Shown: positions 3,914 through 44,405 of the stretch, in pieces
Position numbering within the stretch: position 1 is the stretch's first letter
Layout of the letters: every line of letters starts with the position of its first letter
Assembly: GCA_021770755.1 (NCBI GenBank)
Contig: JAETQI010000006.1
Coordinates: 1-64,000, forward strand
Source: Lachnospiraceae bacterium
GTDB taxonomy: Bacteria; Bacillota; Clostridia; Lachnospirales; Lachnospiraceae
Reading direction: 5' to 3'
Length of the DNA: 64,000 nt
Position numbers and translations under genes: made by a program
The notes under the pieces: model-generated
Seen by the model: the letters and a program-made list of their open reading frames with translations, nothing else
What the model was told of the DNA's origin: nothing
The model's database searches: none

Positions 3914-4750
3914 ATGAACAAAATAGATTTTGCACTTATTATATCTGCTCGGTTCTGTAACCCCAATGGCGATCCCCTTAACTTAAACCGCCCGAGACAA
4001 GATTATGACGGATATGGCTATATCACAGACGTATGCCTGAAACATAAGATTCGCAACCGTTTCCTAGATAACGGGGAAAACGTTCTGATTGTTGAAGACT
4101 CGCGCGTTACTGATGGACTTTTTTCTGTGAACGCGCGTGTAAAAGCACACGATTCATTAAACGATTATGTGAAAAGAAAAGATCCTGATGGCTTTAGAAA
4201 CGAAGCGTGCCGTACATGGCTGGATGTGCGGACTTTCGGGCAAGTCTTCGCATTTAAGGCATCTGATAAAGACGACAAACATATAGGAGTTTCAATCCCT
4301 GTACGTGGTCCGGTAAGCATCGGGGAGGCAAGAAGCCTGGATGTAATTGATATTATTGACTTAGGAATAACAAAATCAACTAATTTGGACGACGCAGGCG
4401 GTCGAAAAAAGGACAGCACCACAATGGGATGCAAATATGTAGTAGCTCACGGCGTCTATGTTGCATATGGCTCCATTTTCCCGCAACTTGCAGATCTGAC
4501 AGGTTTTTCAAGCGCAGATGCGCAAATCCTAAAAAACTCCATGGCTACAATTTTTGAAAACGATGCGTCTTCATCCCGGCCGAGCGGAAGCATGGGAAGT
4601 CAATTGTTTTGGTGGGAACACGATTGTTCTAATGGTCGTAAAAATTCGCTATACGTCCATAGATCATTACATATTAAAGCCATCGAAGATTTTCCGTTTT
4701 ATACTTGTGAGCCAGAACACATTCCAGGTATTGAACTTTCTGTGTTATAG
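3914..4750 (+). CDS. cas7: Orphan type I-C CRISPR backbone protein Cas7 (Csd2)
   Basis: The protein has 278 residues, the usual length for Csd2/Cas7c. Family signatures are present from end to end: NPNGDPLNLNRPRQDYDGYG (residues 16-35), TDVCLKHKIRNRF, TFGQVFAFK, SIPVRGPVSIGEA, the long DSTTMGCKYVVAHGVYV block, TGFSSADAQ, and FENDASSSRPSGSM near the C-terminus. In type I-C Cascade several Cas7 copies coat the crRNA spacer. No cas3, cas5, cas8c, cas4, cas1, cas2 or repeat array exists in this window. The frame is intact and has its own GGAGG, and it sits third in an operon with a zinc-knuckle and an HTH protein. Its role here is unknown. Confidence 0.9.
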   Translation: MNKIDFALIISARFCNPNGDPLNLNRPRQDYDGYGYITDVCLKHKIRNRFLDNGENVLIVEDSRVTDGLFSVNARVKAHDSLNDYVKRKDPDGFRNEACRTWLDVRTFGQVFAFKASDKDDKHIGVSIPVRGPVSIGEARSLDVIDIIDLGITKSTNLDDAGGRKKDSTTMGCKYVVAHGVYVAYGSIFPQLADLTGFSSADAQILKNSMATIFENDASSSRPSGSMGSQLFWWEHDCSNGRKNSLYVHRSLHIKAIEDFPFYTCEPEHIPGIELSVL

Positions 4751-11769: not shown

Positions 11770-13338
11770 ATGAACAATATAGTAGGAATTTACAGCAGGT
11801 TGTCCGAAGAGGATAGAAACAAGCTGAATGAAGATGATGAGAGCCGCAGCATACAGAACCAGAAAAGCCTGCTGATCACGTATGCAACAGATCAGGGGTG
11901 GGATATTTATAATATTTATTCTGATGACGACTACAAAGGAAGCGATCGCAACAGACCAGCATTTAACCAGCTCCTGGCAGATGCGCGGGATCATAAGTTT
12001 AACATCGTACTTTGCAAGTCACAGTCCCGTTTTACGCGGGAACTAGAACTTGTGGAAAAGATTATCCATGGTGATTTTGCAGAGTGGGGGATACGTTTTG
12101 TAGGGCTGGCAGACAATGCCGATACAGCGAACCATGGAAATAAAAAGTCCAGGCAGATCAATGGCCTTGTCAATGAATGGTACTTAGAAGATTTGTCTGA
12201 TAACATAAAGACAGTTCTTACAGACCATCGAAAAAAAGGTATTCACATCGGTGCATTTGCCCCGTATGGATACCAGAAAGATCCGGATCAGAAAGGTCAT
12301 CTGATCATCGATCCGGAGGCGGCTGTAGTTGTGAGGGAAGTGTTTGAACTTTATGCTTCCGGCGTTGGCAGAACGAATATTGCAAGGATTCTGAACGATA
12401 GGGGAATACCTAATCCGACAGAATATAAGCGCAGGAAGGGGCTGCGATACAATGGAGCCGATAAGACGTGTGGTATTCTTTGGAAATATTACGGAGTGTC
12501 TGCCATACTGGAAAATGAAATGTATATTGGTAACATGGTACAGGGAAAATATGCGAATCCTACATACAAGTCCAGACATAGCAAACCAGTTCCGAGAGAA
12601 AAGTGGATCAAGGTGGAAGGAACTCATGAACCAATCATTGACATGGATCTGTGGAATCGTGTGCAGCAGCGCCGCGCAGAGAAGGCAAAACCGTGTTACA
12701 CTGGAGAAATTGGTATATTTGCAGTAAAAACAAAATGTATGTACTGTGGATACACACTTGCAAGCTGCAATAATAGGGGACTGCGGTATTTAAAATGTCC
12801 TACAAGGAATCTGGGTAAACAATTCTGCAAAGGTGCATTTATTGCACAGAGATTCCTAGAGAAAGCGGTTCTTGATGAACTAAATCGTATAATATCAGAA
12901 TATTTTGATGAAACTTCCGCAGAATCAAAGCTTTCGATAACCCGAAATCTTGATACCCGAAAGCAGCAGATGAAAAAAGAGATTTCCAATATGGAGTCAA
13001 AAATAGAGAGTTTAAGGAAAGCTATCCAGAACCTGTATGTTGATAAGGCAAACGGATTAGTTTCGGATAATGAATATATAGAATTTCGCAAGGATTTTTC
13101 AGAGGAAATAGAACGATACAGAAAACTACAGGCGGACAGGACATCAGATCTGGAAGCATTGGAGGCGGAAGGTAAGAATATTCGTTCAAAAGAGGAAATC
13201 TTAAAAAAGTATAAAAATGTATCCAAACTGGATCGGGATATTATGGATTCCCTGATCGACTATATTGAGATAGGACGTTGTGAGAAAAAGGTACACCGGA
13301 ATGATCTGCCGCCGATTGTGATCCACTGGAAATTTTAG
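11770..13338 (+). CDS. Large serine recombinase (integrase of element A)
   Basis: The protein has 522 residues. The resolvase catalytic domain (residues 1-155) has the nucleophile in GIYSRLS (Ser9), SIQNQKSLL, CKSQSRFTRE and the DLSDNIK helix. The recombinase domain (about 165-290) has PYGYQKDPD, VVREVFELYASG, the IARILNDRGIPNP helix and YIGNMVQGK. A zinc ribbon (CMYCG...CPTRN...FCKG, about 318-355) and a coiled coil (380-475) follow. It would catalyse integration and excision at short att sites. It sits at the element's right edge, about 20 bases before cotJC-like sequence, which fits att placement. No frameshift is seen. Confidence 0.93.
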   Translation: MNNIVGIYSRLSEEDRNKLNEDDESRSIQNQKSLLITYATDQGWDIYNIYSDDDYKGSDRNRPAFNQLLADARDHKFNIVLCKSQSRFTRELELVEKIIHGDFAEWGIRFVGLADNADTANHGNKKSRQINGLVNEWYLEDLSDNIKTVLTDHRKKGIHIGAFAPYGYQKDPDQKGHLIIDPEAAVVVREVFELYASGVGRTNIARILNDRGIPNPTEYKRRKGLRYNGADKTCGILWKYYGVSAILENEMYIGNMVQGKYANPTYKSRHSKPVPREKWIKVEGTHEPIIDMDLWNRVQQRRAEKAKPCYTGEIGIFAVKTKCMYCGYTLASCNNRGLRYLKCPTRNLGKQFCKGAFIAQRFLEKAVLDELNRIISEYFDETSAESKLSITRNLDTRKQQMKKEISNMESKIESLRKAIQNLYVDKANGLVSDNEYIEFRKDFSEEIERYRKLQADRTSDLEALEAEGKNIRSKEEILKKYKNVSKLDRDIMDSLIDYIEIGRCEKKVHRNDLPPIVIHWKF

Positions 13339-13359: not shown

Positions 13360-13490
13360 GTGTAGCAGAGCAGAAAGCCCGGACAACGTACGACAATATT
13401 CTCCGCTTGGTCAAGGATCCGGATGTCTGTGATCCGATCAAGTTCCTGCGGGCGAGGGAAATCGTGCATTTCCAGCGGTTTGGCGAAGCG
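13360..13490 (+). pseudogene. cotJC: CotJC/manganese-catalase-like gene, internal fragment
   Basis: The frame reads VAEQKARTTYDNILRLVKDP, then DPIKFLRAREIVHFQRFGEA, a signature of CotJC/Mn-catalase proteins (the REIVHFQRFGEA helix carries metal ligands). No start codon exists; the 5' side abuts element A. On the 3' side the frame continues as KPARLSR, which is not family sequence. The proper end, LRIAQENLDSRNF, lies at 44325. So this is the middle piece of a gene cut twice. Confidence 0.8.
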
Positions 13491-13516
13491 AAGCCTGCGA
13501 GGTTAAGTAGATTTTT

Positions 13517-16099: not shown

Positions 16100-17692
16100 G
16101 TGGGCATTTATCTGAATCCGGGGAATATCGGTTTTTGGAAGTCCGTTCGTTCGGAGATTTATGTGGACAAGACTGGACTGATTGCATGTACCAACAAAGT
16201 GATCAACACAGAAGAACAGTGTGTCTGTGTCAGCAGGCCAAGACGTTTTGGCAAGTCGATGGCATTGAAAATGCTTGCTGCCTATTATAGCTGTGGGTGT
16301 GATTCGTCTGATTTATTCAAGGGTTTCAAGATAGAAAGCGATGAGACGTTTCGGGAGCATTTGAATCAGTACAATGTGCTCTTTCTGAATATGCAGCAGT
16401 TCCTGATCCGGGCAAAGAATGATGATGTGACGGGATATTTGGAACAGGCTGTAATGAAAGAATTAAAAGTGACATATGGGAATTTGATTACAGGGCAGGA
16501 TACTATTCTGGCAGAGGTCCTTGAGAAAATATATATGCGGACGGAAAAGCAGTTTATCTTTCTGATAGACGAGTGGGACTGTGTGATGCGCGAACGGCAG
16601 GAGTCGGAGACGATGCAGAAGCAATATCTTGATTTTCTGCGTGATCTTCTCAAAGACCAGCCATACGTGGCTTTGGCCTATATGACAGGTATTTTGCCAG
16701 TAAAAAAAGTATGGAATCCAACGAAGTTGGATTTGAATTCTGCACTGAATATGTTCTGGGAATATTCAATGACAGACCAGTTTGTCTATGAGGAATACAC
16801 CGGATTTACGGAGGATGAGGTAAAGGGGCTGTGCGAGAGATACGATATGGATTTTGCGCAGGTCAGCAACTGGTATGACGGCTATCAGTTCCGGCAGTTT
16901 CAGCATATCTACAACCCAAGGTCTGTTGTGGCGGCGATGAAGAGCCGTGTGTTGTCAAATTACTGGACTTCCACAGAGACATATGAGGCATTAAAGATTT
17001 ATATAGAAATGGACTTTGACGGGCTTCGGTCAGACATTGTGCAGATGCTCGGCGGGGAACGCGTTAAGGTCAATACGTTGAGTTTCCAGAATGACATGCG
17101 CAATTTTGAGGTAAAAGATGATGTCCTGACACTATTGATTCATTTAGGATACCTCGGATATGATGCGGAGACAAAAGAGGCATTTATTCCGAACAAAGAG
17201 ATTATCGGAGAATTTGAAAATGCCATGAGTGTAAGCGGCTGGTCAAAGGTGATGCAGGTTTTAAAGGCATCAGAAAAGCTTCTCGAAGATACGTTGAGAG
17301 GGGATGCTGATAGCGTTGCCAGGGCGCTTGATCAGGCACATACAGAGGTAGCATCAATTCTGACTTACAATGATGAGAATTCACTTGGGTGCGCAATCGG
17401 TCTTGCATATTACAGTGCGAGGAAGGATTACAGGCTTATAAGGGAACTGCCTACAGGACATGGATTTGCGGATGTTGTATTTCTGCCATTGCCTGCTACA
17501 AATAAACCAGCACTTGTTGTTGAACTAAAATACGACAAGACTGCTGACACAGCGATACAGCAGATCAAAAGTAGACATTACACACGGGCACTGGAAGATT
17601 ATGTCGGTGAGATTGTGATTGTAGGGATCAATTATGATAAGGATAATATTGTCAAGCCGCATAGTTGTCTGATTGAAAGACTCACGAAATAA
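16100..17692 (+). CDS. AAA-ATPase-like protein with C-terminal PD-(D/E)XK domain (copy 1)
   Basis: The protein has 530 residues from GTG 16100, after GGGGGA. The AAA-ATPase_like domain (PF09820 type) includes YVDKTGLI, Walker A SRPRRFGKSMAL (about residues 45-56), Walker B FLIDEWDCVM (about 153-162) and sensor MTGILPVKK. The C-terminal PDDEXK_9 nuclease-like part has GFADVVFLP and ALVVELKYDK (about 470-495). These two-domain proteins are abundant in gut bacteria and of unknown function. It is adjacent to a paralogue at 17721 in the same direction; tandem pairs suggest duplication. No signal or membrane segment. Confidence 0.85.
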   Translation: MGIYLNPGNIGFWKSVRSEIYVDKTGLIACTNKVINTEEQCVCVSRPRRFGKSMALKMLAAYYSCGCDSSDLFKGFKIESDETFREHLNQYNVLFLNMQQFLIRAKNDDVTGYLEQAVMKELKVTYGNLITGQDTILAEVLEKIYMRTEKQFIFLIDEWDCVMRERQESETMQKQYLDFLRDLLKDQPYVALAYMTGILPVKKVWNPTKLDLNSALNMFWEYSMTDQFVYEEYTGFTEDEVKGLCERYDMDFAQVSNWYDGYQFRQFQHIYNPRSVVAAMKSRVLSNYWTSTETYEALKIYIEMDFDGLRSDIVQMLGGERVKVNTLSFQNDMRNFEVKDDVLTLLIHLGYLGYDAETKEAFIPNKEIIGEFENAMSVSGWSKVMQVLKASEKLLEDTLRGDADSVARALDQAHTEVASILTYNDENSLGCAIGLAYYSARKDYRLIRELPTGHGFADVVFLPLPATNKPALVVELKYDKTADTAIQQIKSRHYTRALEDYVGEIVIVGINYDKDNIVKPHSCLIERLTK

Positions 17693-17720
17693 TTCGGATA
17701 GAATGAGAAAAGAGGTAGCC

Positions 17721-19418
17721 ATGACAATGAAAACAAAGATTCCTGTTGGCGTTGAAAATTTTGCTGAAATGCGCAGGGAGGGATTTTATTATATTGATAA
17801 GACAGGGATTATACGGGAGCTTTTAGAGAATCAGGGAAAGGTAAATCTATTTACGCGTCCAAGACGCTTTGGAAAAACTTTGAATATGAGTATGTTGAAA
17901 CATTTTTTCGAGACAGAATGTGACAGCGGTCTTTTTGACGGCCTTGAAATTTCCAGAGAAGAAGAGATCTGTGATAAATACATGGGAAAGTATCCGGTGA
18001 TTTCTATCAGTTTAAAAGGTGCGTCTGGTACAGAGTTTGATTCAGCGAAGAGAATGCTTCGAAGGATCATAGGAAAAGAAGCAATGAGATTTCATTTTCT
18101 CATGAAGAGTGATACTTTGACGGAATTGGAGTGCAGACAATATAAGGCAATTGTTAAAATGGATGAAGAAGGAAACTTTATTATGACAGATGAAGTGTTG
18201 AAAGATAGTCTCCTGACATTATCACAATTGCTGCATAAGCATTATGGGATAACCGCTATCATACTGATCGATGAATATGATGTTCCGCTTGATCAGGCGT
18301 ATCAGTCGGGATATTATGACAATATGGTCGATCTTTTAAAAGGTTTATATGGTCAGGCGCTTAAAACAAATGACAGTCTGGCGTTTGCTGTGCTTACAGG
18401 ATGTCTGAGGATATCGAAGGAAAGTATTTTTACTGGATTAAATAATTTTAATGTTTATACAGTGAAAGATGTACAGTACAATGAATATTTTGGTTTTACA
18501 GACACGGAAGTAAAAAGGATGCTGGAATATTATGGCTGGGAAGAGCGGTATGAAATTGTAAAGGAATGGTATGATGGTTATCGGTTTGGTAATCTGGAGA
18601 TATATTGTCCATGGGATGTTATCAGTTACTGTCATGCATTAAAGATGAATTTGTCTGTGAATCCGCAAAATTACTGGGTAAATACGAGTGGAAATGATAT
18701 CATTAGAAACTTTATTGACAAGGCAGATGCAGCTACGAGGGATGAGATTGAGCAATTGATTGATGGTGGCTATATAAAAAAAGAAATTCACCAGGAATTA
18801 ACTTATAGAGACTTTGATTCTGATATTGATAATTTATGGAGTCTGCTTTTTACAACTGGATATTTGACACAGTATGGAGAAGATGAAAGTGGGAGAACAA
18901 AACTTGTCATCCCAAACAGGGAAGTGCATTGGATATTTGTGCAGCAGATACGCAAATGGTTTAAAGAGGAGACAAAGAAAGATATCACAAAACTACAAAA
19001 TTTTTGCAGGGCGTTTCAGAAAAATGATGTGACAGCTATAGAGGAGGGGTTCACTTCATATTTGAGAAAGACGATTAGTATCCGTGACAGTTATGCCAGG
19101 AATGACATGAAGGAGAATTTTTACCACGGTATTTTACTCGGGCTTCTGGGAAGTATGACTGATTGGAAAATCAGGTCAAATGCGGAAACAGGAGATGGAT
19201 ACAGTGATATCTCTGTGGAAATCGTGGATGATGAGATTGGTATTGTTATAGAATTAAAGTATGCCGAGAATGCAAAGTTTGATGCCGCATGTGACGAGGC
19301 AATGAAGCAGATCAAAGACAGGAATTATGAGGAAGTTTTGGTAGATGATGGCATGAAATTGATATACAGATATGGAATTGCATGTTATAAGAAGCGTTGT
19401 AAAGTGATTTCCGAATAA
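17721..19418 (+). CDS. AAA-ATPase-like protein with C-terminal PD-(D/E)XK domain (copy 2)
   Basis: The protein has 565 residues from ATG 17721 (AAAGAGG upstream; the 17673 start overlaps the previous gene). Same architecture as the neighbour: GVENFAEMRREGFYYIDKTG at the start, Walker A TRPRRFGKTLNM (about residues 44-55), Walker B IILIDEYDVPL, sensor VLTGCLRIS, and a C-terminal nuclease core YSDISVEIVDDEIGIVIELKY. It ends with the usual GIACYKKRCKV. It is only moderately similar to copy 1, so the pair is old or was acquired separately. A hairpin follows. Confidence 0.88.
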   Translation: MTMKTKIPVGVENFAEMRREGFYYIDKTGIIRELLENQGKVNLFTRPRRFGKTLNMSMLKHFFETECDSGLFDGLEISREEEICDKYMGKYPVISISLKGASGTEFDSAKRMLRRIIGKEAMRFHFLMKSDTLTELECRQYKAIVKMDEEGNFIMTDEVLKDSLLTLSQLLHKHYGITAIILIDEYDVPLDQAYQSGYYDNMVDLLKGLYGQALKTNDSLAFAVLTGCLRISKESIFTGLNNFNVYTVKDVQYNEYFGFTDTEVKRMLEYYGWEERYEIVKEWYDGYRFGNLEIYCPWDVISYCHALKMNLSVNPQNYWVNTSGNDIIRNFIDKADAATRDEIEQLIDGGYIKKEIHQELTYRDFDSDIDNLWSLLFTTGYLTQYGEDESGRTKLVIPNREVHWIFVQQIRKWFKEETKKDITKLQNFCRAFQKNDVTAIEEGFTSYLRKTISIRDSYARNDMKENFYHGILLGLLGSMTDWKIRSNAETGDGYSDISVEIVDDEIGIVIELKYAENAKFDAACDEAMKQIKDRNYEEVLVDDGMKLIYRYGIACYKKRCKVISE

Positions 19419-19446: not shown

Positions 19447-20976
19447 TTAGATATTCCAGATGATTTTGGTACTGCCGTCTTCGCTTATGATGATCTGGTG
19501 GATCATGATCATAGCGACCTCTTTTTTGCGGTTGTAGTCAGCTGTTTTCCATGATTTGGCAAGATCGATGATGACATCTGTTTCGTCGTCCATACTTTTT
19601 AACTCATCGATCCGTTCATACAGAGCCCGTTTATCGTTTTTAAACTGTGTAGCTTTTTGGTTGGCGAGTGACAGCAAATCTTCGTTAAAACCGCCTGTCA
19701 GCATTGTATCCATAAGCTGCTTCTCTGATCTTTCAATCGCTTTAATCTTTAATTTCAGTTCATTGACTTCGGGAGAATGGTCATTTGCTGTTATATGCTT
19801 TGCTTCCTTCAGATCGGATAGTTTTTCGCAGATACAGTCATAGACCATGTTTTCCAAATCCTCGGCATAGATGGATACTTTTGTCCCAGTACAGATTTTC
19901 TTATGCGTTTTGCCTGTGCAGTTGAAGTAGCGCCGCATTTCGCCACTTTTGTTGATTTTACCTTTGATCGTAGTCATGGTATGCCCGCATTTTTCACAGA
20001 TCACTTTACCGGAGAGCCAGCTGGTCTGATTGCTGTAACTGTTTGTGATCTGTTTATTTTTCTCGAGCTTCCGCTGGCATTTGAGCCAGATATCCGAATC
20101 CACGATGCCGTTATGGGTTAAGAGTACCAGCTTCATGTCAGACCAGTCGGGATTGTCGGGCTTATGCTTGGTATGTCCGTAGAGCTGTGCCCCATATTCC
20201 CCAGTAAACATGGATACATCAGTTACCATCTGAACTCCATGCCGTTCATAGTAATCGTAGATATCGGAATCCGCTTTGACATAGATCGGATTTTTGAGTA
20301 TCGTGGAAAGTTTAGCTGTAGACCATGCACTTCCATTCAGGGGCAGCCTGTTTTCGGCAATCAGGATATTCATCAGACGCCGCAAAGAGACGCTTTCCTG
20401 CGCATAAACCTCATATATGTATCGTATCTGTTCGATCTCCGCGGGAAGGGGACTTAGCTTTTTGGTGTGGATATTATGAATGACTGTGGGGACAAGCTCG
20501 AATCCGTAAGGTTGTCTTCCTCCCATATAAAATCCCATCTCGCTTCGATGGGCGTAAGCCTGGGTGATGCGGTTGATGATGGATGTTCTCTCAAATTCAG
20601 CAAATATCATCAGGATCTTGACAATCAGTTCCCCGTAGGGAGAGGATGTGTCAAAAGACTCCTGTGAGGAGACAAATTCTACTTTATGGGTTTTGAACTC
20701 CTGCAGAATATTGACGAAGTCGGAGAGAGAGCGGCTGATGCGGTCAAGCTTGTAGACAATGACTTTGCTGACCTTATCCTGACGGACGAGATTCATCATC
20801 TTCTGAAAGCCGTCACGATTGATGTTGCCGCCTGAAAAGCCGTTATCCACAAGGGTTATGACCTTTTCGTTCCGCTCGTCCGGTTTGATGACAGACTTGC
20901 AGTATTCAAGCTGGGTTTCACAGCTGATGCTGTTCTCTCGTTCGATTGATTTTCTTGCGTAGAGCACAATTGCCAT
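19447..20976 (-). CDS. Large serine recombinase (element B)
   Basis: The protein has 509 residues. The resolvase domain includes VLYARKSIERENS (Ser10 nucleophile), DNGFSGGNINRDGF, VYKLDRISRSLSD and FAEFERTSIINR. The recombinase domain (about 155-290) has PYGFELVP, RRLMNILIAENRLP and TILKNPIYVK. A zinc ribbon (CEKCGHTM...CTGKTHKKIC, about 325-360) and a coiled-coil tail follow. It is quite different from the 11770 recombinase. It heads the leftward mobilisation block, so it probably excises element B or a smaller element nested in it. AAGGAAGTG precedes ATG. Confidence 0.92.
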   Translation of the reverse strand: MAIVLYARKSIERENSISCETQLEYCKSVIKPDERNEKVITLVDNGFSGGNINRDGFQKMMNLVRQDKVSKVIVYKLDRISRSLSDFVNILQEFKTHKVEFVSSQESFDTSSPYGELIVKILMIFAEFERTSIINRITQAYAHRSEMGFYMGGRQPYGFELVPTVIHNIHTKKLSPLPAEIEQIRYIYEVYAQESVSLRRLMNILIAENRLPLNGSAWSTAKLSTILKNPIYVKADSDIYDYYERHGVQMVTDVSMFTGEYGAQLYGHTKHKPDNPDWSDMKLVLLTHNGIVDSDIWLKCQRKLEKNKQITNSYSNQTSWLSGKVICEKCGHTMTTIKGKINKSGEMRRYFNCTGKTHKKICTGTKVSIYAEDLENMVYDCICEKLSDLKEAKHITANDHSPEVNELKLKIKAIERSEKQLMDTMLTGGFNEDLLSLANQKATQFKNDKRALYERIDELKSMDDETDVIIDLAKSWKTADYNRKKEVAMIMIHQIIISEDGSTKIIWNI

Positions 20977-21121
20977 TTTGATACACTTCCTTTTAGATAT
21001 TCATCTTTTTTTGTAATACATCCCATTTTGTTGGTTTCCGTTCCTTTATCACTGGTAATTTATGTGGTTCATTTTCTGTGAGATCCAGATCATTCAGCTT
21101 TTTGACAAGCCTTTTATTTCT

Positions 21122-22102
21122 CTAGCGTTCCTCATAGGAAGCTTTGACAGACTCGCCAAGACTGGATATATAGGAGACGGGGTAATTTAAACCGCTTATG
21201 GCGACCAGTGTACTTCTGCCGTTATAGCCTTCAAATACATTTGTGGGTTTTCCGACTTCTGCTATGATAACATCTTTCTCGATGTCTGAATTGCCTTGTC
21301 CAGCGTGGATGATGGCAATGTTCTCACATATCATATTTTGTTCTACAGGTGCAAAAATCCCATCTCTGGTTAATTTCCGCAGCATGAAAGCCTGATCTAA
21401 GGTCTGGTCCTTTTCTTTTACTCCCATGAGATTGATTACCATCATCCCATTATTTTTTAACATTTCAAGTCTCTCGGCTTCATCAAAGTTATTCAGCTCT
21501 CCATAAGTGTCGTTCGAGAGGAAAGTATCAAGAAACTTTGCGAAAGTGTTATTGATGTATTGATAGTCTTTTTCTTTATGGGCACTATTGGAGATACTGA
21601 AATTATTGTTGATGAAAAATGCTGCACCGAGTCTTATCCCAGATTCGCTGATTTCCTGTAGCTCCTTTACTGCATCATAAGTGTTTTTGTGTTTTTTGAC
21701 GGCCTCGTCAATGGAAGGGAGTGCAATAACCGGACATATTATTTTTGAAGGGTTTCCCTCTTCGTTGGCATCCTGTGCAAGCATTTCAGCTAAGATCGTA
21801 GCGCATCCGCTTCCAAAGGAACCTCCGCCACTGAAAACAAGGAATATGATTTCCTCATCAATATTTGACATAAACCTTAAGAACTCTGGATTCTGTTCAA
21901 GGCATGCCAAAGCTTTTTCACGATCGCCCCCAAATCCATCAAAGCCGTTTAAATGATACTTGGGAATGTCACCAAGTACTTTTAAATCCTGTTCACTTCC
22001 ATTGGCAGCAATCACTTTGTAATTTAGTAAATGGAACTCTTTTACCTGTTTGCCGCCATAGTTTCCCAAACCTATAAATTTGCAGTTGTTCTTTAAATTC
22101 AT
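21122..22102 (-). CDS. TubZ-like tubulin/FtsZ-family GTPase
   Basis: The protein has 326 residues. GTP-binding signatures are T1-like GLGNYGGKQ (residues 11-19), the tubulin signature GGGSFGSG (92-99) after FLVFS, a T5-like PSIDEAVKKHKNTYDAVKEL, and a T7 catalytic loop NFDEAE (205-210, matching NxDxxE). Overall length and divergence from cell-division FtsZ fit the plasmid/phage TubZ group, which forms treadmilling filaments that move DNA in type III partition. It overlaps a winged-helix gene by 4 bases (tubR position) and lies with relaxase and coupling-protein genes. The exact family is inferred from motifs; function in this element is untested. Confidence 0.8.
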   Translation of the reverse strand: MNLKNNCKFIGLGNYGGKQVKEFHLLNYKVIAANGSEQDLKVLGDIPKYHLNGFDGFGGDREKALACLEQNPEFLRFMSNIDEEIIFLVFSGGGSFGSGCATILAEMLAQDANEEGNPSKIICPVIALPSIDEAVKKHKNTYDAVKELQEISESGIRLGAAFFINNNFSISNSAHKEKDYQYINNTFAKFLDTFLSNDTYGELNNFDEAERLEMLKNNGMMVINLMGVKEKDQTLDQAFMLRKLTRDGIFAPVEQNMICENIAIIHAGQGNSDIEKDVIIAEVGKPTNVFEGYNGRSTLVAISGLNYPVSYISSLGESVKASYEER

Positions 22103-22371
22103 ACAATTTTTCCTCCTTCGACTGTTTTGATGCCCTTTTCCAAGAGATAAAATGTGTCAGCATGGTTATCAAGGCATCCTTTTTTGATATAACCAGCATT
22201 TGTTAATTTTTGCATTTTTCTGTAAACCGTCATACGGGCTCCAAGCACACCTTCATTATCGTTGATTAAATCCATAATTGTCATGGAATGATATGGATTT
22301 GTGCAGTTGGCATTGTATAAGGAATTTAAAATCATAAATTCCATACGATTTAGTTCGATTATGTCATTCAT
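22099..22371 (-). CDS. TubR-like winged-helix DNA-binding protein
   Basis: The protein has 90 residues: a compact winged helix (EFMILNSLYN, then TIMDLINDNEGVLGARMTVYRKMQKLTNAGYIKKG, wing, YLLEKG). AAAGGA precedes ATG. It is translationally coupled (4-base overlap) to the TubZ-like GTPase, exactly the tubR-tubZ order, and an iteron-like site lies 30 bases upstream. In type III partition TubR binds the centromere tubC and links DNA to TubZ. The assignment rests on context and fold pattern. Confidence 0.7.
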   Translation of the reverse strand: MNDIIELNRMEFMILNSLYNANCTNPYHSMTIMDLINDNEGVLGARMTVYRKMQKLTNAGYIKKGCLDNHADTFYLLEKGIKTVEGGKIV

Positions 22372-22402
22372 ATTGACAAGTCCTTTCTCTGATGTTATCT
22401 AC

Positions 22403-22453
22403 ACATTGACTGGATATGTCATATACATTGACTTGAAATATATATGACATATC
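22403..22453. promoter_or_regulatory. Candidate tubC-like centromere/operator
   Basis: ACATTGACT occurs at 22403 and 22425 (22 bases apart, two helical turns). GATATGTCATATA (22413-22425) and its exact complement TATATGACATATC (22441-22453) form a 13-bp inverted repeat. A further ATTGACA lies at 22373. The site is just upstream of the TubR-like gene, where tubC and the tubR operator are found in known systems. Confidence 0.6.
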
Positions 22454-22502
22454 AATTATTTTCCTTTGCTGCCTTTGCTCTTTTTTCAAAATGTGAAAAA
22501 GG

Positions 22503-22530
22503 AATTTCCCGCAGCAGGGCTATGGGAAAT
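22503..22530 (-). promoter_or_regulatory. Leader hairpin, copy of the 10083 hairpin
   Basis: On the minus strand TTTCCCATAGC-CCT-GCTGCGGGAAATT. The stem is identical to 10083-10111 and only the 3-base loop differs. It lies about 130 bases upstream of the TubR-like start, on the same strand. Confidence 0.5.
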
Positions 22531-22592
22531 CCTGCCATAGCTATTATTCGATTACGCAGTATGCTGCGGGATATGGTGGCCTGCGATCTGAC

Positions 22593-22748
22593 TTATGTAG
22601 AGACATATTTGCGTGGTCTTGTCAGAGCACGGAACAGTTCTTCGGTGATTTGTTCTTTGCTATTTTTCGTAGCAGATGATAGAATAATATGTTCGACATT
22701 GTGCTTAATCTCTTTGGTGTCAATGTACTCTTTGATTAAATTAGCCAT
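22593..22748 (-). CDS. Small protein upstream of tubRZ-like genes
   Basis: The protein has 51 residues from ATG 22748 (AGGAGG 8 bases upstream). Charged helical sequence MANLIKEYIDTKEIKHNVEH ending LTRPRKYVST. It is 11 bases after the gene at 22760, so co-transcribed. No motif is recognised. Confidence 0.6.
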   Translation of the reverse strand: MANLIKEYIDTKEIKHNVEHIILSSATKNSKEQITEELFRALTRPRKYVST

Positions 22749-22759
22749 TTGAAAACCTC

Positions 22760-23467
22760 CTATATCGCGCCACACAGAGGGGCAGTATTGGAATCCAGAT
22801 CGATTCCGTCTGTTACTATCATATGAGTAAAGTCACAGCAAATTTCATGATTGAGCAGATTTAAAATGCCCTCCTGGTTATAGGGAAAGAAACAGCTTGT
22901 CAACAGCGGTGGTGTTACCTTGATATCCTGTCGCTTGTATTTTCGGTCATAATAATGACATTGATTGACAACCCCTTTTCCGTCTTTGTAGTACTGTAAC
23001 TCGATAAAGATAGAGCGGTGGAGCTTATTTTTCAATCGGGTACATAAGCGTGCAGGCAGTTCATTGTAGGTGTCGCCACTGCCGACCATAATCAGAAAAT
23101 GATACTTTTTGTGCGTGGCTTCTGATTTCACCTTCAAATAGTGGTCAAGTGGGAGAGCAGCGTTATCGGTTGTAATGATGTCAACATCATAAAATTTTTT
23201 GTCGAGTTCTGTGTCGATAACGTATAGCAGCTCGTCGATGTGAAAATGGAATGTTTGTAGTTTCTGGGGTTTTGCGCAATAACGATCCGCTCCGCATTTT
23301 CCCTGGTTGCGATCAGTGTAAAAGCAGTCTAATATAGTACAATTGGTACCATTAATCTTCACAGCCAGATATACAACCCTGCCATGCTGTGTTTTAAAGA
23401 GTGTTCGGAATGTGTCTGTGTTGTTGTCGCTTGCGAACACTTCAAGCTTTAAGATGCTCTTGTGCAT
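22760..23467 (-). CDS. Unknown protein of the mobilisation block
   Basis: The protein has 235 residues, with AAAGGAGG upstream of ATG. It contains scattered cysteines and histidines (CFYTDRNQGKCGADRYC, HFHIDELLY) and an FLIMVGSGDTYNELP stretch. No membrane segment. It lies between the relaxase gene and the TubRZ-like genes on the same strand, so it probably belongs to the same maintenance/transfer operon. I do not recognise the family. Confidence 0.65.
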   Translation of the reverse strand: MHKSILKLEVFASDNNTDTFRTLFKTQHGRVVYLAVKINGTNCTILDCFYTDRNQGKCGADRYCAKPQKLQTFHFHIDELLYVIDTELDKKFYDVDIITTDNAALPLDHYLKVKSEATHKKYHFLIMVGSGDTYNELPARLCTRLKNKLHRSIFIELQYYKDGKGVVNQCHYYDRKYKRQDIKVTPPLLTSCFFPYNQEGILNLLNHEICCDFTHMIVTDGIDLDSNTAPLCGAI

Positions 23468-23547: not shown

Positions 23548-24324
23548 TTATCGGGACAATTCTAATTCGTATCTGCGTTCTTGGTTCAATTGGTGTTGAA
23601 GAATACGTTCTTCATTATGTTTTTTGATTGCACGTTTTCTGTCACCAGCATTTGTATGTTCACCACGCTGTTCCTTCTGCCAGTCAATACGGCTCAAATG
23701 TATAGTAGGTTCACGGTTTTTTTGACCTTGGATTTCAAGACTTTCATGAGTGACACGTATGTCATATCCATTTCGTTCATAAGCTCTGTTCTGAACTTTT
23801 GCCCAATTCTCACGCCAGATATTGATATATTTGATATTATTTCGCTCACGATCCTTTTTTTTGTTAAAACCATCTGGTCCAACAGTACGTGTTGATACCA
23901 ATATATGGACGTGAGGATTATTTTTGCTTGGTTCAATTTCATTCCTGCCTTCATGGATAGCTGCGATTGTACATAAACCATATTCTGTGAAATTGTTCGT
24001 GACATATTCTTTGACAATATGAATTAATTCGTGAGTAGGGAGTTCATTAGGCAGAGAACCTATAAACTCTCGCGCAGTACGTGCATCGTATCGTTTTTCA
24101 GCCCTGTCGATCTCATCACAGAGATTTTGAAGATTGTGGTACTTTGGTGGAGCTTTTTCAGGTTGAAAAATTTCGTGATAAAGAACATCTTGCCTTTGAC
24201 GATAATAGGTTTTATCATTATAGGTGTCATGGAGTCTTTCGCCACTAATGTAGTGGGCTGCTTTGGTAATAGACCGTCCTTTTCCTCGGCTGATGTTTTT
24301 AATTTCTAAATGAAAATTTGCCAT
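23548..24324 (-). CDS. MobA/MobL-family relaxase
   Basis: The protein has 258 residues from ATG 24324, after GGAAGGAG; the longer ORF start runs through the oriT-like hairpin and is unlikely. The MobA_MobL domain (PF03389 type) has MANFHLEIKNISRGKGRSIT, AAHYISGERL, a conserved tyrosine region near the start, and the HUH histidines in NNPHVHILVSTR (about residues 160-170). It nicks oriT and pilots the strand during mobilisation. It lacks the long C-terminal helicase/primase extension of larger MobA proteins. Downstream of the coupling-protein gene and the small 24430 gene. Confidence 0.9.
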   Translation of the reverse strand: MANFHLEIKNISRGKGRSITKAAHYISGERLHDTYNDKTYYRQRQDVLYHEIFQPEKAPPKYHNLQNLCDEIDRAEKRYDARTAREFIGSLPNELPTHELIHIVKEYVTNNFTEYGLCTIAAIHEGRNEIEPSKNNPHVHILVSTRTVGPDGFNKKKDRERNNIKYINIWRENWAKVQNRAYERNGYDIRVTHESLEIQGQKNREPTIHLSRIDWQKEQRGEHTNAGDRKRAIKKHNEERILQHQLNQERRYELELSR

Positions 24325-24373
24325 AATTAAAATCTCCTTCCGCGTCTGAGCGCTGTCAGATTTTTTGTGTTTG

Positions 24374-24410
24374 GTCCACTTACACATCTGGAGGGATTTT
24401 GTAAGTGGAC
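24374..24410. other. oriT-like inverted repeat upstream of the relaxase
   Basis: GTCCACTTAC (24374-24383) and GTAAGTGGAC (24401-24410) are exact complements separated by 17 bases. The site is 50 bases upstream of the relaxase start and 20 bases from the end of the 24430 gene, a usual oriT position. The nick site is not identifiable by eye. Confidence 0.55.
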
Positions 24411-24429: not shown

Positions 24430-24726
24430 TTATATCTTATTGGTGGCCTTTTCTTTAATTTGATTGACCAATTCCTGATCGGCAGCTAGTGCCGATAGGA
24501 ATGATTCAATAGATGCAAAAGTAACAGCATTTTCTGCTTTAGTACCTGGTTCAAGATTTAAAACTTCGGGAAAATGTTTGGAAACCAGTTCGCCGATGAT
24601 ATAATTGCGACGTTGGTCCTTTTTCTTACGGATGTCTCTGTCTTTTTTAAGCTGAATTTTTCGCTGTCGTTTAAGCTGGGCAATTTTCTCTTCTGTTTGT
24701 TTGATCTGTTCATCTAATGTTATCAA
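24430..24726 (-). CDS. Small coiled-coil mobilisation accessory protein (DUF3847-like)
   Basis: The protein has 98 residues from TTG 24726, with GGAGT at the right spacing. A charged coiled coil (LDEQIKQTEEKIAQLKRQRK, then KKDRDIRKKKDQRR) is followed by a small helical domain (IGELVSKHFPEVL, FLSALAADQELV). Proteins of this shape sit next to MobA/MobL relaxases and act like MobC accessory factors or are annotated DUF3847. It is upstream of the oriT-like repeat, same strand as the relaxase. Confidence 0.7.
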   Translation of the reverse strand: MITLDEQIKQTEEKIAQLKRQRKIQLKKDRDIRKKKDQRRNYIIGELVSKHFPEVLNLEPGTKAENAVTFASIESFLSALAADQELVNQIKEKATNKI

Positions 24727-24782: not shown

Positions 24783-26519
24783 CTACAGAAAATTGTTGGT
24801 GTCTGTTCGTGCTACTGTTCTTACTGAGACTACTCGAATACCAGAAGTTTGTCTATTTTCTCTATCTTTTGAGTCTCTTCCAGGAATTGCTCCATCATCA
24901 ATGTGATTTGAGGTATCAATTTGTGTTAATATGTTGTGTGTCGTCGATGTAACTTTTGCAGTAGCGGGAAGTATGGTGTGTTTAGGTAACAAAGGATTTT
25001 CAGCTAAATTGTTATTCAGCTGAAGTTTGTCCACTCGACAGAAGCCGTAAGGCGTAATCAAAGGGATATCTGTCAGGATTGAAAGCTCATGTGGGAAGAC
25101 AATATATTCACGAGTTTCTGTTAGTTGATTACTGTACCCAACAGGATCCATGAGATCGTCGAAACTTTCACTTCTACCGCGGTATGTGACCAGGTGTGTG
25201 CCAATAAGATGGCTGATGTTCTCCTGGGTATCAGCATCATTTGCTCGCAGGACAGCTTGAAATTGACAGTTATCAAGAATAATCCGTCTATCACATGTTC
25301 CGTAAAATTTGTCAATTTGGGCTAAGCTTTGAACTGCCAGGCAGATGTTTATATTCTTGCTCCGCAAAGTTGCTAATGCGTTTGTGATCATTTCCAACTT
25401 TCCAAATCTTGCAAATTCGTCCATGAGCAAAAGCGTTTGGGTATTATCTACCCCCTCTGGACTGTATTGATCAGGTCTGCGCTCTAAGTGGCGTATGAGC
25501 TGTGTATACATGATATTAATTGCACCGCTCCATTCTTCAATCTTTCCAGCAGGAATACATAGAAAAATGTTATTTTCCGTTAAATCATCCCATGTGAAAC
25601 AGTCTGTGTTACTTTGAGTGCTGCGAAAAGCTTTTTGGATATATGGGTCGGTGGCGAAAACAGACAGTTTATTTCGTATCCCTCTGTCGATACAGGCAAT
25701 TTGCTCCGGCTTGAGGTCGAGTAGTTGTCCTAAAAATATTTTGGCCTGTGTATCATTTTCCTCGGATATTTCCTTACTCAATTTGGCAACTGTTGATGAG
25801 GCTATTTTTGTCATGGATTCAATGAAACTGCACCCCAGATGGTAATAATATAACAAGGCTGCTGTGAGTACATTTTGTTCGGATTCAGCCCAGAATGGGT
25901 CGATATTGCCAGGCGGTGTTGGGATAATTGCAAGAACAATCTCCCGTATGTTGCAGATGATGTTCATCTCTCCGTCCTGCGTGACCAAATCAAATGGGTC
26001 ATAGACTGCTCCGTCAAGTTGCATAGGGTCAAAAATTATAAATGGACGTTTAACATATCCACACTGATACAGCTTTTGATAATAGGAAGACAGTTCACCT
26101 TTGATGTCCGTTACACACAGGGCTGCTTTCCAAGTGTATAATGTGGGCTTGATTATGCCAGCGCTTTTTCCGCTGCCGTTGCCCCCTATGATCAGTATGT
26201 TTCCTTCTGTCCCCTGGCGTATGCCGAAAAATTTGTTAAATCCGCAGTTTTTTTTATATCCCATGAAAAAACCTGAGTCAGAATATGTATCAAGAAGCAG
26301 CTGAGTCAGAACGAGGTCTGATTTTAACATCTGCTCCAAGTTATGATCTGGCGACTCGCGGGGTGACATGTCACATACGTCGGGGAAAAGTTTGTCATCG
26401 TCTATTGCTTGGCGATATTTCTTTTTCTGTCTGCGAGAAGAGTTATTTTTCGAATTAGTTATATCGTTGACTATCTTGTTGAGGTGTCGGATGGCTTTTT
26501 TCTCTTTTTTTCTGTCCAT
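24783..26519 (-). CDS. VirD4/TraG-type coupling ATPase, soluble form
   Basis: The protein has 578 residues. Walker A IIGGNGSGKSAG (about residues 111-121), DIKGELSSYYQ, FDPMQLDG, Walker B TLLLMDEFARFGK (about 364-375) and the LAVQSLAQIDKFYG motif are all typical of type IV coupling proteins. The N-terminus is basic and lacks the usual two membrane helices, so it probably docks as a soluble ATPase on a helper element's secretion channel. It brings the relaxase-DNA complex to the pore. No VirB4-like or other pore gene is present in the window. Confidence 0.9.
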   Translation of the reverse strand: MDRKKEKKAIRHLNKIVNDITNSKNNSSRRQKKKYRQAIDDDKLFPDVCDMSPRESPDHNLEQMLKSDLVLTQLLLDTYSDSGFFMGYKKNCGFNKFFGIRQGTEGNILIIGGNGSGKSAGIIKPTLYTWKAALCVTDIKGELSSYYQKLYQCGYVKRPFIIFDPMQLDGAVYDPFDLVTQDGEMNIICNIREIVLAIIPTPPGNIDPFWAESEQNVLTAALLYYYHLGCSFIESMTKIASSTVAKLSKEISEENDTQAKIFLGQLLDLKPEQIACIDRGIRNKLSVFATDPYIQKAFRSTQSNTDCFTWDDLTENNIFLCIPAGKIEEWSGAINIMYTQLIRHLERRPDQYSPEGVDNTQTLLLMDEFARFGKLEMITNALATLRSKNINICLAVQSLAQIDKFYGTCDRRIILDNCQFQAVLRANDADTQENISHLIGTHLVTYRGRSESFDDLMDPVGYSNQLTETREYIVFPHELSILTDIPLITPYGFCRVDKLQLNNNLAENPLLPKHTILPATAKVTSTTHNILTQIDTSNHIDDGAIPGRDSKDRENRQTSGIRVVSVRTVARTDTNNFL

Positions 26520-30333: not shown

Positions 30334-30362
30334 CGGAAAACGAAATGTTAGGAGGCATGGAG

Positions 30363-31682
30363 ATGTTTATAAAAGATATTGATTGTACAAAAGATACGCC
30401 TGTTGTCCTGGGAAGACCAGATAGTCCGATCTATGGAAAAGGCGTCAGGATGAAGCCCAGGGTAGATGGAAGAAAGGACAGCGGGCATTTCAAAGAAATT
30501 TATTTACCGGAACTGCTGCCATTAGAAGAATATGATCTTATCGTGGTGCTGTTGTCGGGAGGAAAGAATTCAGTGGCGTGTCTTTACAAGCTACTGAAAT
30601 TGGGCGTACCAAAAGAAAAAATAGAACTATGGCATCATAATATAGATGGAGGACATCCATCAAGGCGCATGGACTGGCGGTGTACGCAGAACTATGTACA
30701 AGCACTGGCAGAGGCGGAAGGGATGAAACTGCGGATCTCATACAGGGTAAATGGATTCTTCGGTGAGTTATACAGAATAGGAGCATCAGAACCTATCGAA
30801 TGGATAGAGCCTGATACCAGTGAGGTGAAACAGTGTAAGTTATCGCCAAATTACATAAAGTGCCAAAAGTTAAAGGAACAGGCGGCAGATGAGATAGAGT
30901 CCCTGTTAAAAGAATATGGTTACAGAATGAAGTTTCCTGCAAAGTCCCCTGATCTGTCAAAACGCTGGTGTTCCGCTTATCTGAAGATCTGTGTAGCAGA
31001 TGCAGTTGTAAGCAATTTAGACTGGATCGGAGAATTGGAGCGGCTGGGAGGAAAACGATTGAAATTTCCGGCAAAGGGCAGCACGCATCAGGGACGCCGG
31101 TGTTCCGGCAGTCTGAAAGCTGCAGTGCAGGACAGTGTTACAAGTAATCTTGAAAAAACCAGGACGGATAAGAAGATCCTGATCGTATCAGGTGAAAGGC
31201 GGGGAGAATCGGCCGGACGTTCAAAATACAATGAGATGGAGATACACCGCACCAATGCTGAAAAGCGCTTCCATAGGACAGTACACCAGTGGAGGGCTGT
31301 CATAGATTATTCAGAAAAAGATGTATGGGAAGTACTCAAACGCCATGAGGTAAACCCGCATCCCTGCTATCGTATAGGCTGGAACCGCTGCAGCTGTGCA
31401 ATGTGTATCTTTTCCACACCGCCGCTGTTTGCAGGAATCAGGGAGATTTATCCAGAGGAATATGAGGCATTGAGACAGGATGAGAAAATACTTGGTTTTA
31501 CTTTGGATAATAAGAAGTGTCTGGATGATTTTGTGGGAAAGGCAGAGTCATGTGTATATTGGAACGACAGGGCGGCAGTCCGTTCCGTTCAAACGGGTAA
31601 ATTTGCGGTTAAAGATATATATGTGAAGGACTGGAAATATCCGGCCGGGGCGTTTCACGGAGCAGAAGGTGGACCGTGTTAG
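30363..31682 (+). CDS. PP-loop / PAPS-reductase-family protein with internal duplication
   Basis: The protein has 439 residues from ATG 30363 (AGGAGG 7 bases upstream; ATG 30357 is too close). PP-loop SGGKNS at residues 65-70 (Asn where many have Asp), then the LWHHNIDGGHP loop. A segment FPAKSPDLSKRWCSAYLK (about 191-208) recurs 44 residues later as FPAKGSTHQGRRCSGSLK (about 235-252). Both lie before SGERRGES (276-283). Most relatives I know carry this CxxxLK segment once. A cysteine cluster SCAMC occurs near 360. Family members in phages and ICEs are often annotated PAPS reductase; substrate unknown. Confidence 0.82.
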   Translation: MFIKDIDCTKDTPVVLGRPDSPIYGKGVRMKPRVDGRKDSGHFKEIYLPELLPLEEYDLIVVLLSGGKNSVACLYKLLKLGVPKEKIELWHHNIDGGHPSRRMDWRCTQNYVQALAEAEGMKLRISYRVNGFFGELYRIGASEPIEWIEPDTSEVKQCKLSPNYIKCQKLKEQAADEIESLLKEYGYRMKFPAKSPDLSKRWCSAYLKICVADAVVSNLDWIGELERLGGKRLKFPAKGSTHQGRRCSGSLKAAVQDSVTSNLEKTRTDKKILIVSGERRGESAGRSKYNEMEIHRTNAEKRFHRTVHQWRAVIDYSEKDVWEVLKRHEVNPHPCYRIGWNRCSCAMCIFSTPPLFAGIREIYPEEYEALRQDEKILGFTLDNKKCLDDFVGKAESCVYWNDRAAVRSVQTGKFAVKDIYVKDWKYPAGAFHGAEGGPC

Positions 31683-36546: not shown

Positions 36547-37479
36547 ATGGCAGCAAATGTAGAGACAATGTTTTACACAAGGGTGGCTCCCTGGCATGGG
36601 CTTGGCGTGCGTGTTGAAACTGCATTATCGTCACAGGAAGCATTGCGGGCGTCAGGTCTTGACTGGAATGTCATTCAGAAACCCATTATGACAAGTGCAT
36701 ATGAACCAATTCCCGGCTACAAGGCAAATGTCAGGGATACGGACAATAAGGTGCTCGGCGTGGTCAGTGACCGCTACAGGGTTGTCCAGAATGCGGAAGC
36801 CTTTGCGTTTACGGATGCCCTTCTGGGAGAGGGTGTTAAGTATGAGACTGCAGGCTCTTTGCAGGATGGGCGCAGGATATGGCTCCTTGCGAAGCTTCCG
36901 GACAAATATATCATTGAAGGGGAACAGATTGAGCCTTATCTTGTATTCAGCAGTTCCCATGATGGCAGCGGTGCTATCAAAGTTGCAATGACGCCTGTGC
37001 GTGTAGTGTGTCAGAATACCCTAAACATGGCTTTATCAACGGCGAAACGCATCTGGTCAACCGTCCATGTGGGAGACCTTGCAGCGAAGATGGACGAGGC
37101 GCACAACACGCTGTTGCTGGCAGAGAAGTATATGGGGAAGCTTGGCACGGAGATTTCGGCATTGTCAAAGATACGCCTCCCTGACAGCAGGGTCATGGAG
37201 TATATTGACATGCTGCTCCCAATGGATGAGCAGCCCACGGATATCCATAAGAAGAATATCAGCCGTATCCGGGAAGATTTAAAGATACGTTACTTTGAGG
37301 CTCCCGATCTGAAGCATGTCGGAAAGAACGGATACCGTTTTATCTGTGCCGTTTCGGATTTTGCAACCCATGCAAAGCCTGTCAGGGAGACGGCAAACTA
37401 CAGGGAGAACATGTTTGCAAGGACAATTGAAGGAAACCCGCTGATCGACAGGGCATATGAGATGATATGTGCAGCATGA
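36547..37479 (+). CDS. DUF932 (phage/plasmid-like) protein
   Basis: The protein has 310 residues, with AAAGGAGA upstream. The start VETMFYTRVAPWHGLGVRVE, the LGVVSDRYRVVQNAEAFAF block and TPVRVVCQNTLNMAL (about residue 145) are the DUF932/TIGR03299 pattern found on phages, plasmids and ICEs. The biochemical role is unknown. It is usually near recombination genes, as here (YqaJ and Rad52-like downstream). First gene of the recombination module. Confidence 0.9.
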   Translation: MAANVETMFYTRVAPWHGLGVRVETALSSQEALRASGLDWNVIQKPIMTSAYEPIPGYKANVRDTDNKVLGVVSDRYRVVQNAEAFAFTDALLGEGVKYETAGSLQDGRRIWLLAKLPDKYIIEGEQIEPYLVFSSSHDGSGAIKVAMTPVRVVCQNTLNMALSTAKRIWSTVHVGDLAAKMDEAHNTLLLAEKYMGKLGTEISALSKIRLPDSRVMEYIDMLLPMDEQPTDIHKKNISRIREDLKIRYFEAPDLKHVGKNGYRFICAVSDFATHAKPVRETANYRENMFARTIEGNPLIDRAYEMICAA

Positions 37480-37599
37480 TAAAGTGCGGTCGTGAAGGAC
37501 AGGAACCATGTGTTTCTGTCCTTTATGTATACACACGGGAGGAGAAGTTTTCCCTGCCCGTGTGAAGGATAAAAATTTATGAAAGGAAGGATGATGGAT

Positions 37600-38529
37600 A
37601 TGTATGAAAAGATACCAACAACAGGAATGAGTAATGAAGAATGGCTCACACTCAGGAAAACAGGGATCGGGGGTTCTGACGCTGGTTCCATCTGTGGTGT
37701 GAACCCGTTTGGCAGTCCGATGAAGGTGTATTATGACAAGACAGGCAGCAAAGTTGAAGAACTGGACAACGAGGCGGTGCGTCAGGGGCATGACCTCGAA
37801 GATTATGTCGCACAACGGTTCATGGAGGCAACAGGGCTGAAAGTAAGGCGTTCCAACTTTATGTACCGGAGTGTTGAGAATCCTTTTATGATCGCTGATG
37901 TGGACAGGCTTGTGATCGGGGAGGATGCAGGTCTGGAATGTAAGACAGCGAGCGCATACAACGCAGATAAATGGAAGGACGGGGATATCCCCCTGCATTA
38001 CATCATGCAGTGCTATCATTACATGGCAGTTACAGGAAAACGCACATGGTATATTGCGGCGGTCATACTCGGCCAGCAGTTTACTTACCGTAAACTGGTG
38101 TGGAACGATGAGATTATTAAGCAATTGGTAGATGTTGAGAGGGAATTTTGGGAAAAACATGTGGCAGCCAGAATGATGCCGGACCCTGATGGCTCAAAAG
38201 TGTGCAGCGAGGTGCTGGAAGAATATTTCCATACCGTAAGGAAGGGGAGTACCATACGGCTGGAAGGCTTTGACGACAGGCTTAGACGGAGGGCAGAGCT
38301 TGTGGAGCAGATCAGCCGCCTGAAACAGGAGCAGGATACCATCGAGCAGGAAATAAAGCTTTATATGAAGGATAATGAATATGCGTCCAGCGACGGCTAC
38401 AGGGTTTCATGGAGCAGTGTGCAGTCAACCCGGCTTGATGCGAAACGGATGAAAGAGGAGCAGCCGGATATCTACAGGGATTACGCGGTGCAGTCCGTAT
38501 CGCGCCGTTTCCAGGTTAAGGCAGCATGA
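37600..38529 (+). CDS. YqaJ-type viral recombinase / exonuclease
   Basis: The protein has 309 residues from ATG 37600 (AAGGAAGG 9 bases before; earlier ATGs are too close). YqaJ/lambda-exonuclease fold: EEWLTLRKTGIGGSDAGSI (about residues 13-31), the catalytic LECKTASAYNADKW (about 115), IMQCYHYMAVTGKRTWYIAAV and the late CxxC-free helical tail. It should resect double-strand ends 5' to 3', partnering the Rad52-like annealing protein downstream. Confidence 0.9.
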   Translation: MYEKIPTTGMSNEEWLTLRKTGIGGSDAGSICGVNPFGSPMKVYYDKTGSKVEELDNEAVRQGHDLEDYVAQRFMEATGLKVRRSNFMYRSVENPFMIADVDRLVIGEDAGLECKTASAYNADKWKDGDIPLHYIMQCYHYMAVTGKRTWYIAAVILGQQFTYRKLVWNDEIIKQLVDVEREFWEKHVAARMMPDPDGSKVCSEVLEEYFHTVRKGSTIRLEGFDDRLRRRAELVEQISRLKQEQDTIEQEIKLYMKDNEYASSDGYRVSWSSVQSTRLDAKRMKEEQPDIYRDYAVQSVSRRFQVKAA

Positions 38530-38617
38530 CATACAGTATGGCACGGGGCAGTTTCAAAGACGGGACTGCCCTGTCTCTCAATGCCGGGATTCGTCCGGCA
38601 GAATGGAGGATCAGGAT

Positions 38618-38941
38618 ATGAAAGAACATTTTTTAGACAGGCTTTACGGGGAGTTCCAGGCATACAGGGCGTCCCTTCTGAGCTGTACAAATGCAGAGAT
38701 ATTCAACAGGTGCTATGAGATTGACGCGGTCGTAAATTTCTATGAGATCATGAGGGAAAGGGCGGAAAGAATGTCTGACTGTGAGATGGAGATTCTCTTA
38801 AAGGATAAGGATCTCCTGACAGAGCTTTACAATACATGGCTGCAGAAAACGGACAGTACGTTCATGGAGATGACGGCGCATGTCGAGGAGGAGGCCGGGA
38901 ATATCATAAACAGGATTTCAGGAAACAGGAGGCAGGGATAA
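38618..38941 (+). CDS. DUF3848-like small protein
   Basis: The protein has 107 residues from ATG 38618 (GGAGG 9 bases upstream). Helical, LYGEFQAYRASLLSCTNAEI resembles the DUF3848 opening. It lies between the exonuclease and annealing-protein genes, 1 base before the next start, so expression is coupled. No enzymatic motif. Confidence 0.6.
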   Translation: MKEHFLDRLYGEFQAYRASLLSCTNAEIFNRCYEIDAVVNFYEIMRERAERMSDCEMEILLKDKDLLTELYNTWLQKTDSTFMEMTAHVEEEAGNIINRISGNRRQG

Positions 38942-38942
38942 A

Positions 38943-44324: not shown

Positions 44325-44405
44325 TTCGGCGAAGCCCTCCGCATCGCGCAGGAGAACCTTGACTCGCGCAACTTCTACGCATTCAACCCGGAATTTGACA
44401 AGTAA
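44325..44405 (+). pseudogene. cotJC: CotJC/manganese-catalase-like gene, C-terminal fragment
   Basis: The frame FGEALRIAQENLDSRNFYAF followed by NPEFDK and a stop is the CotJC C-terminus. It continues exactly where the 13360-13490 fragment stops (FGEA). It has no start codon. The shared bases GGCGAAGC mark the insertion joint. Confidence 0.82.

Follow-up and report, generated by a model that had tools for sequence, protein, structure and literature searches.

We consider it rather probable that the 64,000-nucleotide stretch of DNA from a gut Lachnospiraceae bacterium analysed here (the window) carries a captured partition module of the phage c-st type within an integrative mobilizable element (IME) that inserts into the spore-coat gene cotJC, with a TubZ motor that in this copy is disabled or strongly altered and with TubR and its site looking intact. 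Sequence searches, AlphaFold models and Foldseek place both TubZ and TubR in the c-st type. The c-st TubRZ-tubC system, a type III system of a Clostridium botulinum phage, has the same gene order (tubC-tubR-tubZ) and gave the top sequence and fold matches for both proteins.

The tubZ gene (21122-22102, reverse strand) has 326 codons and ends in an amber TAG stop at 21122-21124. Its product matches the Pfam family TubZ_C_3 at 1.5e-11, better than the family cut-off, and the top PDB matches by sequence were the c-st TubZ structures 4xcq and 3v3t (3-5e-10), along the whole length. The AlphaFold (AF2) model, built from an alignment with 26 relatives (pLDDT 88, pTM 0.90), has the tubulin/FtsZ fold with TubZ structures as its closest matches, c-st TubZ being first in Foldseek (3v3t at 3e-24, 4xcq at 9e-24). 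The T7 loop, NxDxx(D/E), is intact as NFDEAE, with Asp207 invariant in the TubZ alignment and an acidic residue common to c-st TubZ. In the body of the protein 30 of the 31 conserved columns are kept, T96F being the sole deviation, which rules out decay of the whole gene, and comparison with the relative L107 gave dN of about 0.22 with dS saturated. Apart from the tail and T96F the body is thus well conserved, indicating that the gene has not been out of use for long. No second, intact TubZ was found elsewhere in the same genome.

Directly upstream lies tubR (22099-22371, reverse strand), encoding a 90 aa winged-helix protein whose stop overlaps the tubZ start by 4 bp (ATGA). It had no match among curated families; its closest PDB match was TubR 6tey (4e-6), and the AF2 model (pLDDT 90, pTM 0.81) again retrieved 6tey first in Foldseek, with the pBM400 TubR (4asn) near the top. 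The preliminary description of the locus, which had recognized a TubZ-like GTPase coupled to a small winged helix protein and had proposed structure prediction as a check, is therefore confirmed by confident models of both folds.

A tubC-like site (22360-22453, reverse strand) lies upstream of and over the tubR start. It contains three copies of the 18-mer iteron GTCAATgTaTATGACATA (coding strand) at 22415-22432, 22393-22410 and 22360-22377, the last spanning the tubR start, and a 17-nt inverted repeat (22413-22429/22437-22453). The iteron-like repeats reported earlier at 22403-22453 are thus real, and the site reaches further, to 22360. Iteron steps are 22 and 33 bp, both multiples of 11, and the observed repeat similarity was equalled by 3 of 300 dinucleotide shuffles. 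Taken alone, the window iterons are moderately convincing as a putative tubC, and the tandem repeat finder TRF called no array here since the copies are too few. The case is made much stronger by a sister element (L125, genome G002), which at the same place has four iterons spaced exactly 22 bp apart and a further one at the tubR start, an array that TRF does detect; the window has 2 + 1 copies against 4 + 1 in L125, and the repeat unit is conserved. Among relatives, tandem arrays were found upstream of tubR in 19 of 28 loci, compared with 27 of 159 random windows (Fisher p 1e-7), with periods that are mostly multiples of about 10 bp. Another inverted repeat (ATTTCCCGCAGCA/TGCTGCGGGATAT, 22504-22574) is located between the p60 gene and tubC and is partly retained in L125.

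The element that contains TubRZ is 30.9 kb long (13482-44335) and interrupts cotJC between two copies of an 8-bp flanking repeat, GGCGAAGC. The left copy (13482-13489, forward strand) lies in cotJC after ...HFQRFG, and the right copy (44328-44335, forward strand) is followed by the cotJC 3' end; the halves joined across the element read ...HFQRFGEALRIAQENLDSRNFYAFNPEFDK. An uninterrupted cotJC passes through the insertion point in L131, and distant relatives of the recombinase (37-50%) are close to cotJC in L126 and L128-L131. These ends agree with the integrative location proposed before, and an alternative boundary at AAAnuc1/SerRec was dropped in favour of them. We infer that 13482-44335 is a single element; a composite is possible.

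The TubRZ module sits between the integrase, a large serine recombinase of 509 aa (19447-20976), and a set of genes encoding the conserved element proteins p60 (22593-22775) and p235 (22760-23467), a MobQ-family relaxase (23548-24387), p98 (24430-24726), a small protein conserved beside the relaxase, and a VirD4/TraG-type coupling protein of the CD1115 family (24783-26519), all on the reverse strand. Pfam and NCBIfam matches bear out the earlier assignments of recombinase, relaxase and coupling protein. Cargo is also present beyond the mobilization genes, and the element has genes for a DUF932 protein, a YqaJ exonuclease and a Rad52-type annealing protein (36547-39725, forward strand). Among the element ORFs scanned, small ORFs only in part, no type IV secretion or conjugation channel genes were detected, and no replication initiator (Rep) was found among those scanned. 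With an integrase, a MobQ relaxase and a coupling protein, defined ends in a target gene, and no secretion or replication genes found, the element looks like an IME in its gene content. It resembles the MobQ/VirD4 IMEs of Clostridia, which have the same kind of serine recombinase, a MobQ relaxase and their own coupling protein without a secretion channel, and differs from them in carrying TubRZ, which is inserted between its integrase and its mobilization genes. No report of type III partition in an IME was found in the open-access papers searched, a coverage that leaves out most subscription papers.

Several neighbouring loci were observed in and around the element. Two adjacent AAA-ATPase/PD-(D/E)XK genes (16100-19418) are present, the second of which has no counterpart in L045 and carries an internal deletion in L125, and a PAPS-reductase-like protein with weak BrxP similarity (30345-31682) could be defence cargo. 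Just short of the cotJC 3' part at 13365-13514 lies the end of a second serine recombinase gene (11770-13338), and the cotJC 5' part is on another contig, C68 (L137:7275-7694), followed by a ParA gene. Since cotJC is interrupted twice and its 5' part is on another contig, two elements are probably inserted in this one spore-coat gene. To the left of the second recombinase is a Cas7 gene of type I-C CRISPR (3914-4750), probably cargo of that element. A related recombinase-MobQ-p98-VirD4 set was found beside a cotJC 3' fragment in genome G138 (L046:5559-10720), apparently at the upstream one of the two insertion points.

Comparison with sister elements showed that TubRZ is an optional 1.6-kb insert of the element. 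At the position where the window has 1598 bp (20994-22591), L045 (genome G027) has 28 bp; it has the same core beside cotJC, with a recombinase 90% and a relaxase 77% identical, and no TubRZ. In L125, whose recombinase is 97% identical, most of tubR and tubZ is deleted and tubC is retained; the deletion, at a short microhomology, is in frame and leaves the initial seven codons of TubR joined to the closing stretch of the TubZ tail. L125 has also lost the mobilization genes. Because the G002 assembly is a draft, with an estimated contamination of 7%, the L125 copy needs confirmation.

Two lesions set the window TubZ apart. The amber replaces codon 327, and the C-terminal tail, present in 26 of 26 aligned relatives, is missing. 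The tail is still recognizable downstream: 42 in-frame codons past the amber (20993-21121, reverse strand), followed by TAA, are homologous to the relatives' tails, and the conceptual translation reads ...YEER*RNKRLVKKLNDLDLTENEPHKLPVIKERKPTKWDVLQKKMNI*. This sequence aligns with the tails of L009 and L029 (shuffle p <0.001 and 0.002), which are on the same contigs as L107 and L109, respectively, and is also similar to the L106 tail, SKWEVLQKKMKK. The second lesion is in the T4 (nucleotide) loop, where residue 96 is Phe in the window and Thr in 25 or Ser in 1 of the 27 sequences, so the motif GGG(T/S)G(S/T)G with its Thr (or Ser) has become GGGSFGSG. Of the two motifs initially cited in support of a TubZ, NFDEAE is sound; GGGSFGSG is abnormal, its change from Thr to Phe being found in the window alone. 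Homology to TubZ is not in doubt despite this altered active-site motif. The c-st counterpart of residue 96 appears to be T100, given that 3v3t has Ala and 4xcq has Thr at the aligned position. The c-st T100A mutant has altered nucleotide turnover and retains assembly. Tail-truncated TubZ does not assemble in dilute solution and forms abnormal filaments under crowding, and the tail touches TubR-tubC (PMC5322520, PMC7762940). The TubZ body being otherwise constrained, the loss of the tail and T96F look recent or specific.

The amber is read here as a stop. Genome-wide recoding of TAG as an amino acid is ruled out because TAG terminates VirD4, p235, the second recombinase and other genes, and a search for a CUA suppressor tRNA found none, its single pattern match being tRNA-Arg(TCT). 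Low-level readthrough is possible, as is a base error of the draft assembly.

In terms of a type III system, the window has TubR upstream of tubZ and the tubC repeats and lacks the TubZ tail. With both the tail and the T4 loop failing, the module is not classed here as a functional type III system, and active partition of the excised circle would be doubtful, since the TubZs studied need the tail for normal filaments and for binding TubR-tubC. Without readthrough of the amber, this copy is unlikely to perform canonical segregation. The initial suggestion of active segregation or plasmid-like replication of the circle is thus not supported for this copy, in which the tail is lost, T96F is present and no Rep was seen among the ORFs scanned, with the module missing in L045 and mostly deleted in L125. 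A working system, in which the excised circle is segregated either by sufficient full-length TubZ from readthrough or by the tail-less T96F protein itself, is regarded as unlikely. The tail frame preserved behind the amber and the strong constraint on the TubZ body speak for it, as does the SXT/R391 precedent for relaxases being able to replicate elements after excision (PMC4489591), and polymerization of tail-less c-st TubZ under crowding, together with T100A assembly, could be a counterpoint to the damage. Against this stand the amber codon itself, the lack of a suppressor tRNA match, T96F, the related elements without tubRZ or with the pair deleted, and the lack of a Rep among the ORFs scanned.

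The arrangement of the genes raises another alternative, in which TubR-tubC is kept as a regulatory switch over an operon that includes the integrase, so that TubZ would be dispensable. The genes tubR, tubZ and integrase are in line on one strand, the original tubZ stop is about 16 bp ahead of the integrase start with no terminator-like site found between them, and TubR and the iterons are intact where TubZ is damaged. In known systems TubR represses tubRZ (PMC7762940), which counts for such a switch, as does the persistence of tubC ahead of the integrase in L125, where tubRZ is lost. However, L125 kept the site and lost TubR, the L045 integrase is present without the site, and the promoter and terminator scan was uninformative, with promoter scores no better than those of shuffles. 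We give this alternative a low probability.

TubR adjoins TubZ in about 40 loci. The relatives were recovered with alignment queries, which were needed in place of single-sequence ones: tblastn found none in plasmid and phage records, and single-sequence peptide scans found none in viral and genome contigs. The Lachnospiraceae loci L106-L108 and L109 encode TubZs 53-70% identical to the window protein next to a TubR; these have a full tail (339-357 aa) and the canonical GGGSTGSG (GAGGSTGSG in L109), unlike the window TubZ, and their settings, where assignable, are of phage type, unlike the window element. The Velocimicrobium porci prophage (L109) includes a serine integrase, replication initiator, terminase and portal, and L012 is a prophage-like locus with DnaD/DnaC adjoining TubZ. 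In L013, a conjugative element with RepA_N, VirD4, PrgI and VirB6, and in L037, which has the same layout, TubZ neighbours replication genes (RepA_N and/or DnaB) as well as a set of type IV secretion genes; these loci would be conjugative plasmids, or ICEs that replicate, with partition of the tubulin type. Such a pool of phages and conjugative elements would be a fitting source for the capture of TubRZ by a mobilizable element. Compared with c-st, the window TubZ lacks the tail, has Phe for Thr in the T4 loop and has 12 extra residues in two loops; its module sits in an integrated mobilizable element, and no TubY (no MerR-type match) was found among the part of the element ORFs scanned, TubY not being present in all TubRZ systems.

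Phage-type and plasmid-like contexts of the closest relatives, and the module being a clean insert, would also suit a prophage or plasmid leftover that recombined into the element and has been carried passively, without ever being used by it. This appears improbable: the TubZ body is under coding constraint, the placement in the operon is precise, and between sister elements the iteron copy number varies while the repeat unit is kept.

The preferred explanation, a captured module with an impaired motor, can be outlined as follows. An IME integrating into cotJC by its serine recombinase would have acquired tubC-tubR-tubZ from a Lachnospiraceae pool of phage or plasmid-like elements. In the original role, TubR dimers would coat the iterons and TubZ filaments would carry the TubR-tubC complex, keeping the excised circle through cell division. 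A need for partition could have come from relaxase-driven replication of the excised circle, as in SXT/R391 (PMC4489591). In the window copy, the amber would remove the tail, with its roles in TubR-tubC binding and filament shape, and Phe has replaced the nucleotide-loop Thr; TubR and tubC may still autorepress or remain in place as an operator ahead of the integrase. A partition module turned control device, with TubR and iterons regulating a tubR-tubZ-integrase operon, the altered TubZ as a non-cytomotive partner and excision linked to partition proteins, is the least probable of the readings considered.

When integrated elements carry partition systems, plasmids and integrative elements become harder to tell apart. 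SrpMRC of the SXT/R391 ICEs (PMC4489591), the precedent found, is a plasmid partition system that stabilizes an integrative element; unlike the window TubRZ, it is actin-type (type II), belongs to a self-transmissible ICE and has activity shown by experiment. Sister IMEs of a single host genus that carry the tubulin-type module or have lost it offer a natural experiment for asking if the excised circle needs segregation, and the damaged TubZ gives a direct prediction on the roles of the tail and the nucleotide-loop Thr.
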